Assembly: GCF_013520985.1 (NCBI RefSeq)
Contig: NZ_JACDTY010000014.1
Coordinates: 62,001-126,000, forward strand
Direction: 5' to 3'
Source: Mesorhizobium neociceri
Lineage (GTDB): Bacteria; Pseudomonadota; Alphaproteobacteria; Rhizobiales; Rhizobiaceae
Length of the DNA stretch: 64,000 nucleotides
Shown here: in pieces, positions 59,069 to 64,000 of the stretch
Layout of the letters: each line of letters begins with the position of its first letter
Position numbering within the stretch: position 1 is the stretch's first letter
Program-made: the position numbers and the translations under genes
Notes under the pieces: model-generated
The model's database searches: none
What the model was told of the DNA's origin: nothing
What the model saw: only the letters and a program-made list of their open reading frames with translations

Positions 59069-59225
59069 ACCCCCCTCTGTCCTGCCGGACATCTCCCCCT
59101 CAAAAGGGGGGAGATTGGCAGCGTCCCTGCCGGCGCGTTTTCCTGCAACGCTGGAGGTTGGCGAAAGCGGTCGAACGCTCAATCTCCCCCCGTGAGGGGG
59201 AGATGGCCGGCAGGCCAGAGGGGGT
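59069..59225. repeat. Intergenic mosaic palindromic repeat
   Basis: Inverted ends ACCCCCTCTG...CCTGCCGG and CCGGCAGGCCAGAGGGGGT, each followed inward by CATCTCCCCCTC and a GGGGGGAGATTG segment. The arms match closely over about 45 bp. It lies between the binding-protein stop and the ATPase start, so the importer transcript must cross it. Shares TGCCAATCTCCCCC with the hairpin at 39272. Confidence 0.7.
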
Positions 59226-59266
59226 GCTGTCCCGCCGGCCTCGCCAACTAGCGGCCGTCGAGCGCC

Positions 59267-61460: not shown

Positions 61461-61629
61461 TTATAGGAGCCGCTCGCTCCGTTTCCATAGTCGCTCGGCA
61501 GATTGCGCGTCGACCGCATAGGGCATCACGCCCAGCGTCCCGGTCAGGCGGGCGCCGCCCTGGCAGCACGCCGTCATCTTGTTTTCGGACCGGCGCGATG
61601 TCGACGTTTTCGCAATAGACGCCACCCAT
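61461..61629 (-). pseudogene. 3' remnant of an SDR gene
   Basis: On the minus strand GGVYCENVDIAP, then (after a single-base slip near 61588) ENKMTACCQGGARLTG, GVMPYAVDAQSAERLWKRSE, RLL and a TAA at 61461. This matches the conserved C terminus of a family of NADP-dependent SDRs (GGVYCE-DIA then GVxPYAVD-AExLWxxSE). Nothing SDR-like precedes it: upstream sequence belongs to the AraC remnant on the other strand. Missing its first 80 percent and frameshifted, so not functional. Confidence 0.65.
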
Positions 61630-61849
61630 GCGTGCCGGCGTCGCGCCGCTCGCCTATCTCACGCAATGGCGCATGCGGCTCGCCGAACGGGCGCTGCGCG
61701 AGGACACCCTCGCCGTCTCTGGCCTCGCCCGCCGGCTCGGCTACACCTCCGACAGCGCTTTTTCCAACGCCTTCAAGCGTGTCACCGGCAGCGCCCCGAA
61801 CGTCTATCGCAGTACGGTGCGGGGACGCTCCCAGCTGGCGGCGGAATAA
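61628..61849 (+). pseudogene. 3' remnant of an AraC-family regulator
   Basis: The open frame encodes GVAPLAYLTQWRMRLAERAL and REDTLAVSGLARRLGYTSDSA then FSNAFKRVTGSAPNVYR, the last helix of the first HTH and the full second HTH of an AraC-type domain. The effector domain and first HTH are missing, and a TAG closes the frame upstream at about 61615. It abuts the SDR remnant head to head, so both lost their 5' parts. Confidence 0.7.
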
Positions 61850-61918
61850 GGGCTTGGCTTGACAAAGCCCGGTTAGAAGCGCCCCGTGCCGGCGGCCATT
61901 GGGGCTATGGGGATATCG

Positions 61919-62005
61919 ATGAAGAAAATTTATGAAAAGCCGACGCTGAACAGGCGTCAGCAGCTCTCGCGCGCCATTGCGCTCCAGCTTCCTTCGACGT
62001 TCTAG
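61919..62005 (+). CDS. 28-residue RiPP-precursor-like peptide
   Basis: MKKIYEKPTLNRRQQLSRAI followed by ALQLPSTF. The YEKPTL start with a following basic NRR and a Leu-rich amphipathic helix resembles lasso-peptide leaders (Y-x2-P-x-L) and the small orphan leader-type peptides that genome pipelines call putative RiPP precursors in Mesorhizobium. The lasso Gly and penultimate Thr of the leader are not evident. GGGG lies six bases before the ATG, a TTGACA is at 61859 but without a good -10, and a rho-independent terminator follows 20 bp after the stop. No RRE, cyclase or protease gene is in the window. The gene call itself is moderately supported; the RiPP assignment is tentative. Confidence 0.5.
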   Translation: MKKIYEKPTLNRRQQLSRAIALQLPSTF

Positions 62006-62024
62006 CCACGATCGCAGTCACTGC

Positions 62025-62056
62025 AAAGCCCGTTGCCTAGAGGTAGCGGGCTTTTT
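62025..62056 (+). terminator. Rho-independent terminator after the 28-codon gene
   Basis: AAAGCCCGTTGCC-TAGA-GGTAGCGGGCTTTTT forms a hairpin of about 13 bp with two mismatches and a T5 tail on the plus strand. It is the strongest intrinsic terminator in the window and marks the end of a short transcript, either the 28-codon gene or a small RNA containing it. Confidence 0.75.
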
Positions 62057-62164: not shown

Positions 62165-62389
62165 ATGGCCAGTTCCGTCACCAGCCAGAATTCCAAGCGC
62201 GCCGCGGTGCGCAAGGCGCTCGACCGCCACAAGGTGTACGTCACCGCGCAAAGCTTTTCCGGCGGCGTCTACTCGGCCCGCGTGCTGGTCGACGGCGAGG
62301 CCTATTGGGTCGATGAATTCCGGCTGAGCCAGCTTCAGGGCGGCCTTTCGCCGGCCGAGCTCGACCTGACGCCGGCCACCGACGATTGA
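62165..62389 (+). CDS. Conserved small hypothetical protein
   Basis: 74 residues starting MASSVTSQNSKRAAVRKALDRHKVYVTAQSFSGGVYSARVL. A compact alpha-beta pattern (helix, then VYVTAQ, YSARVLVDG, YWVDEFRLSQLQGGL), with no membrane segment, suggests a small globular protein. It lies 47 bp upstream of ligD on the same strand and may share its transcript. No function recognised. Confidence 0.55.
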   Translation: MASSVTSQNSKRAAVRKALDRHKVYVTAQSFSGGVYSARVLVDGEAYWVDEFRLSQLQGGLSPAELDLTPATDD

Positions 62390-62435: not shown

Positions 62436-64000
62436 ATGACCACCCCGCCCAAGCTCAAAGCCTATCGCGCCAAGCGCGAATTTTCGAAGACGCCGGAACC
62501 GGCGGGCGGGTTCATTTCAGGCGATGGCAATCGCTTCGTCGTTCACAAGCATCACGCCACCGCCGACCATTACGATTTGCGCCTGCAGGTCGGCGGCGTG
62601 CTGAAAAGCTGGGCGGTGCCGCGCGGGCCGTCACTCAACCCGGCCGACAAGCGCCTCGCCGTCGAGACCGAGGATCATCCGCTCGAATATATCGACTTCG
62701 AAGGCGTCATTCCCGAAGGCGAATATGGCGGCGGGCCGATGATCGTCTGGGACACCGGCACCTGGGCGCCGATGGACGATGTCGAAAAAAGTCTGAGGAC
62801 CGGCGCCTTCAAGTTCCGGCTGGCCGGCGAAAAACTCACTGGTGGCTGGATGCTGACGCGTCTGAAACCAAAGCCCGGCGAGGACGAGAACAAGAAAAAC
62901 TGGCTCTTGTTCAAGGAGCGCGACCTCGCTTCCGACACCGAGCTCGATATCCTCGAAGCGCGGCCGGAAAGCGTGAAATCCGGCAAGCGCATCGAGGAGT
63001 TGGTGGCGCCGCCGAAGAAGCCGGCGCGCCTGCCGCCCAGACCCGGCACGCTGAAACCCGGCGCGTTGCCCGGCGCTGTGAGGGGCGATCCACCGTCACG
63101 CATCGAGCCTCAACTTGCAACCCAGGTGCCGAAGCCACCGGGCGGGCCGGTGGAAGACACAGGCGAACTCTGGCTGCATGAAATCAAGTTCGACGGCTAT
63201 CGCACCATGGCGCATATCATCGATGGCGAGGTCCGGCTGATCACGCGTGGTGGCATCGACTGGACGAAACGCTATGGCGACCTGCCGCAAGCCTTCTCGC
63301 GGCTGCCGCTCAGCCAGGCGATCATCGACGGTGAGATCATGGTGCTGGACGAGAAGGGCATTTCCCGTTTCGCGCTGCTGCAGGATGCCCTGTCGGCGGG
63401 CGCCGGCAGCAAGTTGCATTTCTACGCTTTCGACCTCCCGCATCTCGACGGCTGGGACTTGCGCAAGGCGCCGCTCTTAAAACGCAAAGCCCTGCTCGCC
63501 GAGCTTCTCGCCGGCGCCGGCGCCAACTCCGCCATTCAGTTGAGCGATCATGTCGAGGGCGACGGGCAGGGGCTTTACGATCAGGCGACCGAACTCGGGC
63601 TGGAAGGCGTCGTCTCCAAGCGCGCCAACGCCATTTACCAGAGCGGCCGCACCAAGAGCTGGACCAAGGTCAAGGCGCTGCAGAAGGGCGATTTCGTCAT
63701 AGCCGGCTACACCATCTCCGACGCCGCCGAAGGACTGGCCGCGCTCGGCATGGCCGAATTCGAGAATGGCGAACTGCACTATCGCGGCAAGGTGGGCACC
63801 GGCTTCGACGCAGCGACGGCAGCCGAATTGCTGGCGCGGCTGGAGCCGCTGCGCGACGGCGCGACGGCGCCCGAAGGCGTGCCGCGCGAGATCATGCGCG
63901 AGATGAAATGGGTGCGGCCGCTGCTGTCGGCCCGCATCCACTACGCCAACCGCACGGCGGACAATTCGCTGCGCCATGGCGTGTTCCGTGGCCTGCGCGA
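62436..64000 (+). CDS. ligD: DNA ligase D (5' part)
   Basis: 521 complete codons from MTTPPKLKAYRAKREFSKTP, running off the right edge. Residues about 1-165 form the 3'-phosphoesterase domain with HHATADHYDLRLQ (His40, His45, Asp47, Arg49) and IPEGEYGGGP. The ATP-dependent ligase domain follows: EIKFDGYR with nucleophile Lys251, IDGEIMVLDEKG, FYAFDLPHLDG, EGVVSKRANAIYQSG and WTKVKAL, then the OB fold with YRGKVGTGF. The primase-polymerase domain, normally C-terminal in rhizobial LigD, is beyond the window. With Ku it repairs double-strand breaks by end joining; no ku gene is visible here. Confidence 0.92.
   Translation, partial: MTTPPKLKAYRAKREFSKTPEPAGGFISGDGNRFVVHKHHATADHYDLRLQVGGVLKSWAVPRGPSLNPADKRLAVETEDHPLEYIDFEGVIPEGEYGGGPMIVWDTGTWAPMDDVEKSLRTGAFKFRLAGEKLTGGWMLTRLKPKPGEDENKKNWLLFKERDLASDTELDILEARPESVKSGKRIEELVAPPKKPARLPPRPGTLKPGALPGAVRGDPPSRIEPQLATQVPKPPGGPVEDTGELWLHEIKFDGYRTMAHIIDGEVRLITRGGIDWTKRYGDLPQAFSRLPLSQAIIDGEIMVLDEKGISRFALLQDALSAGAGSKLHFYAFDLPHLDGWDLRKAPLLKRKALLAELLAGAGANSAIQLSDHVEGDGQGLYDQATELGLEGVVSKRANAIYQSGRTKSWTKVKALQKGDFVIAGYTISDAAEGLAALGMAEFENGELHYRGKVGTGFDAATAAELLARLEPLRDGATAPEGVPREIMREMKWVRPLLSARIHYANRTADNSLRHGVFRGLR

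Follow-up and report, generated by a model that had tools for sequence, protein, structure and literature searches.

A 28-codon gene of Mesorhizobium neociceri probably encodes a precursor of a dispersed peptide family served by a distant, cyclase-less enzyme locus

What is the product of a gene of only 28 codons that carries its own expression signals and lacks an evident biosynthetic partner? The question was raised by a 64,000-nucleotide stretch of M. neociceri DNA (G000:C5:62001-126000), referred to here as the window, to which all positions refer unless stated otherwise. The gene lies on the forward strand at 61919..62005, with its ATG start codon at 61919-61921 and its TAG stop codon at 62003-62005, and encodes the peptide MKKIYEKPTLNRRQQLSRAIALQLPSTF. 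A GGGG ribosome-binding site (61909..61912, +) is located 6 nt 5′ of the ATG, and a TTGACA box resembling a −35 element (61859..61864, +) starts 60 nt before it. In a scan of the peptide-gene strand with the sigma-70 consensus, the −35 box alone scored well; no complete promoter was found and a −10 box was not identified. An intrinsic terminator hairpin (62025..62056, +) begins 19 nt 3′ of the stop codon. Folding showed 13 pairs, two of them G-U, in the arrangement AAAGCCCGTTGCC-TAGA-GGTAGCGGGCTTT (62025-62054), followed by TT; this hairpin is absent from the output of a simple terminator scan. The reading frame, ribosome site, upstream box and terminator described in the original prediction were thus all found in the sequence or its fold.

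The surroundings of the peptide gene, which make up part of the 64 kb, were inspected for modifying enzymes and, as had been predicted, none was seen. Downstream, a 74-aa open reading frame (62165..62389, +) without a Pfam match and a LigD-type DNA ligase gene (62436..63998, +; PF13298, PF01068 and PF04679), which extends past the end of the window, lie outside the system and served as synteny anchors. The 74-aa frame follows an orthologous peptide gene at four other loci (L003, L004, L005 and L018; genomes G031, G010, G028 and G009). The ligase gene was additionally matched at L003, L004 and L005 (G031, G010 and G028), and the G009 locus stops at the 74-aa frame. All four syntenic orthologues retain the leader, the TTGACAAAG box and a GGGG-type site, and each, as judged by eye, is followed by a terminator hairpin of its own sequence. 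The C-terminal parts read LQLPSTF in the window and VYVGSAPPT, LTVLSGKE, SPIPSAAT and LIISSGR in the orthologues, with serine at the fifth position in all five peptides. In two further genomes (G018 and G008; L006 and L007, about 1300-1495) the position of the peptide gene holds a different 64-aa open reading frame (MIANRTTAEDMARTVGVDPDTFRAALRS...), which represents turnover of small genes at this site; since these genomes carry a different frame there, no clean empty site is available for comparison. Just 5′ of the peptide gene, a 73-aa frame (61628-61849) covers no more of an AraC-type regulator than its C-terminal HTH_18 domain and is probably a regulator remnant. Further upstream, a palindromic, intergenic repeat (59070-59242) matches three other genomes (L003, L010 and L012) over ~70-170 bp in both orientations, and we take it to resemble rhizobial mosaic elements.

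Contrary to what the original prediction had assumed, the peptide is not an orphan at the scale of the genome. A family profile (A1) was built from 29 peptides of this genome and 12 relatives. Searching the genome with it gave 11 members at an E value of 0.01 or better and 17 at 10; the window peptide, itself one of the 29 rows of the profile, matched at 7e-15. Across the genus, 891 matches at E 0.01 were found in 101 of 146 genomes (1-29 per genome), 13 of the 101 being positive by construction. The search for leader-sharing peptides in the genome and its relatives that had been suggested was therefore answered in the affirmative. No Pfam or NCBIfam family matched the window peptide, and a match to IR1-M (E 0.06) was dismissed as weak. 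The profile match, the syntenic orthologues and the codon-position pattern described below rule out a chance open reading frame. In four plasmid records, where the gene table is incomplete, family genes are unannotated or hypothetical.

An alignment on the leader tyrosine of 130 distinct peptides (134 genes) from fetched loci revealed a conserved leader followed by a variable core. This is a non-random set, consisting mostly of best-scoring matches and their neighbours, and the profile columns include part of the core. Conservation reaches 100% for Tyr at −17, 99% for Pro at −14 and 99% for Leu at −12, in peptides that were selected partly by the YxxPxL motif itself, as well as 99% for Leu at −6 and 98% for Ala at −1. 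Position −2 is occupied by Thr (55%), Val (25%), Ala (17%) or Ile (2%), giving the leader consensus YxxPxLxKRxKLSxVTA. Between −1 and +1 the information content drops from 4.13 to 1.17 bits, and this boundary after Ala −1 is the predicted cleavage point. In the window, the 21-aa leader (61919..61981, +) has Y5 at −17, P8 at −14, L10 at −12, A21 at −1 and, at −2, the rare Ile (I20); with the predicted cut shown by a slash, the peptide reads MKKIYEKPTLNRRQQLSRAIA/LQLPSTF. The predicted core, placed by the same drop in information, occupies 61982..62002 (+). Core lengths range from 5 to 26 aa, with 7-11 aa in 109 of 130. Serine is present in every one of the 130 cores (2000 shuffles: mean 98.1, maximum 109) and falls within +3 to +6 in 124 of them, and the codon of Ser +5 at 61994..61996 (+) marks the predicted phosphorylation site of the window peptide. 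Threonine occurs at chance level (61 observed, 62.3 expected). Among peptides of the enzyme loci described below that were picked by the leader motif alone, serine is likewise found in 29 of 29 distinct cores (shuffles: mean 21.7, maximum 27). In 47 of the 130 cores a serine is placed between two cysteines.

These alignments also bear on whether the locus is instead a small RNA in which the open reading frame is incidental or secondary. Such a reading draws on the compactness of the unit with its −35 box and terminator, and on a fold z-score of −2.17 (4 of 200 shuffles folded equally well, and the longest stem is the terminator hairpin). In the leaders of the 134 family genes, however, variability is highest at third codon positions (1.30 bits compared with 0.78 and 0.70 at the other two). 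Sequence is thus conserved as peptide and not merely as DNA, the comparison for which the original prediction had asked, and its suggestion of a small RNA that also codes is disfavoured. Moreover, the orthologues retain reading frame and leader while their cores change, and terminator hairpins show just a weak excess in the family as a whole (31 of 134 genes versus 14 of 134 control windows); the terminator belongs to the orthologue group of the window gene and is not a family-wide feature. We therefore regard the small-RNA explanation as extremely unlikely. Of the other signals, GGGG-type hexamers are the most frequent 6-mers directly 5′ of family genes, and TTGACA lies within 100 nt upstream of 55 of 133 genes, compared with 11 of 665 random windows from the same loci, with TTGAC starting mostly 55-63 nt 5′ of the ATG.

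Around the peptide clusters that were inspected first, no common enzyme was seen. The lead came from a Transglut_core3 search of the genus, which returned two kinds of protein resembling the lasso peptidase B2. One of them belongs to a locus at about 397-402 kb of contig C22 in the same genome (L075), where three divergent members of the peptide family (MTKK-YExPVLRKAGKLSS...) are encoded 3.3 kb away from the B2 gene (C22:401201-401533). The score of the divergent members there against the lasso_leader_L3 model falls just short (17.9 bits, cut-off 19). Encoded at L075 are a PqqD-type RRE protein (PF05402, 42.1 bits, cut-off 23.4), B2 (lasso_biosyn_B2, NF033537, 67.5 bits, cut-off 33), a HprK-like kinase (K), a formyltransferase and an NTP_transf_5 protein (N; E 5.7e-28); a lasso cyclase is absent. 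K falls far short of the curated thresholds (29 bits for TIGR04352, which requires 200; Hpr_kinase_C under its gathering score), and its assignment as a remotely related HprK-like kinase follows from conserved motifs (HMLH, APSGTGK and SDD) and these sub-threshold matches. Conserved motifs were also seen in B2 (RRCLREGLL, AHCWVCLDG and VVSD) and in N (DRPFTDIDILV). In a sequence search of solved structures, PqqD had one good match, TfuB1 (E 1.2e-5), and otherwise weak ones, K gave only chance-level matches and B2 none. The AlphaFold model of K is poor (pLDDT 48). The nearest matches to K in named records are from Mesorhizobium, at 93% identity. Neither an ABC transporter match among the five genes of this locus nor a signal peptidase among six proteins scanned there was found.

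Using K, 68 loci were collected, of which 64 are titled Mesorhizobium and 8 end early at contig ends. All 68 contain PqqD, B2, K and N; a PqqD-like protein, for which a search had been suggested, is thus encoded at a distance from the window gene. The flanks fetched around each of the 68, which span 8 kb or stop where the contig does, contain no lasso cyclase; a narrow search pattern detects one or more family peptides in 22. ABC matches (E 1e-4) occur in 41 of 68 loci, with 43 of 44 matches at the edges of the stretches and away from the enzyme genes. The formyltransferase-like gene (L075, 8982-10166), which is also present in 9 of 68 enzyme loci, might add a formyl group to a sugar or to the peptide. 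Two groups of family peptides with LDRIAA/LDRITA leaders, three at L247 (G384) and five at L248 (G531), have no enzyme locus within the 19 kb fetched; both genomes carry K elsewhere, and in G384 it adjoins another family peptide. One alternative is that B2 cleaves the peptides while kinase and nucleotidyltransferase do something else, leaving a plain linear peptide. The remote relationship of K to known HprK-like kinases would allow this, but K and N accompany PqqD and B2 at all 68 loci with their motifs conserved, and every core holds serine while threonine stays at chance; we consider this outcome unlikely.

To relate enzymes and peptides, K was scored as present at E below 1e-100, and three genomes with weak matches only (G016, G091 and G104) were counted as K-less. 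Among 146 genomes, 97 have both K and peptides, none has K only, 4 have peptides only and 45 have neither. All 97 K-positive genomes thus contain peptides (3-29 each, median 9), compared with 4 of 49 K-less genomes (two peptides in G076, one each in G077, G146 and G159). Fisher's test, which takes no account of relatedness, gave p 2e-33. An rpoB tree was built for 100 of the 146 genomes, namely 53 of the 97 K-positive and 47 of the 49 K-less ones; K presence requires seven changes on it. Peptides follow K in 6.1 of the 7 independent contrasts on average and the reverse never occurs, and the sign test is modest (median p 0.031, range 0.016-0.063). The association survives the phylogenetic test. 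Three of the four peptide-bearing K-less genomes cluster with two that have neither (support 89), and the fourth is placed, with poor resolution, among three that have neither; these placements fit peptide loss after enzyme loss.

Outside the genus sample, K was found in 18 and peptides in 13 (6 of this genus, 7 not) of 397 genomes of the order, all 13 being among the 18; three of these, the genome studied here, G471 and G275, contributed to the K alignment and are hence K-positive by construction. Five K-positive genomes of this sample gave no peptide match. Two of them (G221 and G420) have YxxP-type small open reading frames near K, and near K in the other three (G296, G302 and G303) no convincing one was seen. 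In the class sample K was present in 1 of 270 genomes, our own; the phylum sample, taken in part from this order, had K in 8 of 269, each of them belonging to this genus or order. The conserved lasso-type leader over a variable core, together with an enzyme locus that tracks the family, strongly supports both the RiPP-precursor reading and the suggestion that the peptide is matured by enzymes encoded elsewhere. Alternatively, the short peptides might work without modification in signalling or regulation, their link to the enzymes being indirect. The genes are indeed small and often have their own promoter-like box. Yet the leader is strongly conserved against a variable core, no core lacks serine, genomes tend to have both enzymes and peptides or neither, and some peptides adjoin the enzymes. 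An unmodified role is thus quite unlikely.

The same genome carries a canonical lasso gene cluster (L118, 7143-12985; G000:C22, about 427-433 kb), which is separated from the enzyme locus by about 26 kb. It comprises a lasso precursor, a PqqD-like gene (PqqD2), B2 (68 bits, cut-off 33), a cyclase (NF033535, 797.7 bits, cut-off 525), a kinase-like gene and an ABC transporter named from sequence; the precursor (33.5 bits, cut-off 33) has the core GGSGTTALDASFPAHTPVGELTFS, which ends in serine. Nearby genes, named in the same way, are presumably of sugar-dehydrogenase and sugar-transferase type. With cyclase, B2 and precursor all above cut-off, and YxxPxL common to both leaders, the family peptides could be substrates of this cluster and become lasso peptides. 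However, none of the 130 cores is ring-capable, i.e. at least 13 residues long with Asp or Glu at 7-9. Five genomes with 6-16 peptides (G073, G088, G100, G150, which is only 79% complete, and G153) have the enzyme-locus B2 only, so the lasso cluster seems not to be required. Conversely, 15 genomes have the lasso-cluster type of B2 alone; 11 of these are peptide-free and 4 have one or two peptides. Peptides are, in addition, linked in cis to the cyclase-less locus. The lasso-cluster B2 query matched 15 of the 68 K loci, nearly always in its 5′ repeat-like extension outside the B2 domain, and the match at L226 may be a B2 fragment. Maturation into lasso peptides is therefore very unlikely, and the canonical cluster is a separate system.

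Our preferred reading is that the window gene encodes a RiPP precursor, one of a multicopy family whose genes are dispersed, and that the distant cyclase-less enzyme set matures it in trans, for which we estimate a probability of roughly three in four. The family members are most likely precursors of short linear phosphopeptides. The PqqD-type RRE from the distant C22 locus would bind the YxxPxL leader and present the precursor to the kinase and to the B2 cysteine peptidase; the kinase would phosphorylate the core serine, +5 in the window peptide, and B2 would cut after Ala21 to release LQLPSTF. These roles and the cut are proposed by analogy with BsfA, in which YxxPxL spans −17 to −12, Ile is at −2 and B1 assists both kinase and peptidase (PMC10368454). 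N probably decorates the phosphate further, similar to PsmN of pseudomycoidin, a nucleotidyltransferase-like decorator reported to place hexose on phospho-Ser (reviewed in PMC9266682). Since the locus lacks a macrolactam cyclase and the core an Asp/Glu that could close a ring, the product would stay linear; cores with two cysteines could alternatively be disulfide-looped.

Among the top-ranked papers returned by broad queries of the open-licence literature, no description of this family was found. Several known systems share parts of it. Prochlorosins combine one enzyme set with many dispersed precursors of conserved leader and diverse core, as in the Mesorhizobium family; they differ in having a lanthipeptide synthetase, Nif11-type leaders and unrelated chemistry. 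The leader motif is also common to the PQQ precursor. Two features of lasso systems recur in the family: the YxxPx[L/V/I] leader, in which Thr, Ile or Val occupies −2, and the pair of B1 (RRE) and B2. It lacks both a cyclase in the same locus and ring-capable cores. The phosphorylated lasso system bsf of Bradymonas sediminis has equal leader spacing, discrete B1 and B2, a HprK-like kinase acting on an internal core serine and a predicted nucleotidyltransferase, but also a cyclase and a Gly1-Asp8 ring, neither of which the Mesorhizobium locus offers (PMC10368454). Paeninodin and pseudomycoidin clusters likewise contain a HprK-like kinase, and differ in their C-terminal serine, true lasso fold and cyclase (PMC9266682).

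The nearest described system found is that of the linear polyphosphorylated peptides (LPP; Popov et al. 2026, PMC13381572), and the Mesorhizobium system, judged by its genes, appears to work like it. LPP clusters are reported to have an RRE, a HprK-like kinase and an NTP transferase without a cyclase, the final structure of their products being unknown, and the authors describe them as restricted to Bacillota. Both systems have a discrete RRE, a YxxP leader, a HprK-like kinase (here assigned by motifs and sub-threshold HMM matches), an NTP transferase and variable cores, lack a macrolactam cyclase, and often have a lasso cluster in the same genome (PMC13381572). The LPP leader peptidase is the SipW-like signal peptidase LppS (SpI), whereas a lasso-type B2 cysteine peptidase takes its place in Mesorhizobium and no SipW-like peptidase is among the six own-locus proteins scanned. 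LPP clusters contain 1-3 precursors of 35-200 aa and a core gene set that includes an MsbA-like transporter (PMC13381572); in Mesorhizobium, a median of 9 mostly scattered precursors of about 30 aa per K-positive genome have cores mostly of 7-11 aa. The leader consensus YxxPxVLxHQxIxFETxxS of LPP has only YxxP in common with the consensus given above, and the hosts are Bacillota in one case and Alphaproteobacteria in the other (PMC13381572). Given these differences in peptidase, leader, size and number of precursors, gene dispersal and host phylum, we do not file the Mesorhizobium system as an LPP member. Relative to LPP of Bacillota, its apparent novelty, as far as gene content indicates, lies in B2 and the dispersed substrates.

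A broader picture, to which we give even odds, is that Mesorhizobium and some related genera of the order run a combinatorial phosphopeptide system. One cyclase-less, lasso-derived enzyme set would serve a library spread over the genome: about ten, and up to 29, mostly separate genes encoding peptides of 7-11 residues. Each peptide would centre on a phosphorylated serine, perhaps decorated further, that in about a third stands between two cysteines, with possible disulfide loops; cores would diversify more quickly than leaders. The system would combine a logic like that of prochlorosins with lasso-derived chemistry and be a proteobacterial counterpart of LPP of separate origin. If true, hundreds of genes of roughly 30 codons in a genus of nitrogen-fixing symbionts would gain a common function and a testable enzyme set, and cyclase-less phosphopeptide RiPPs would extend beyond Bacillota. 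Two lasso-type RRE systems in one cell would pose the question of leader discrimination that is raised in the LPP report (PMC13381572). Finally, a single set of lasso-type enzymes would be seen to suffice for many dispersed substrates.
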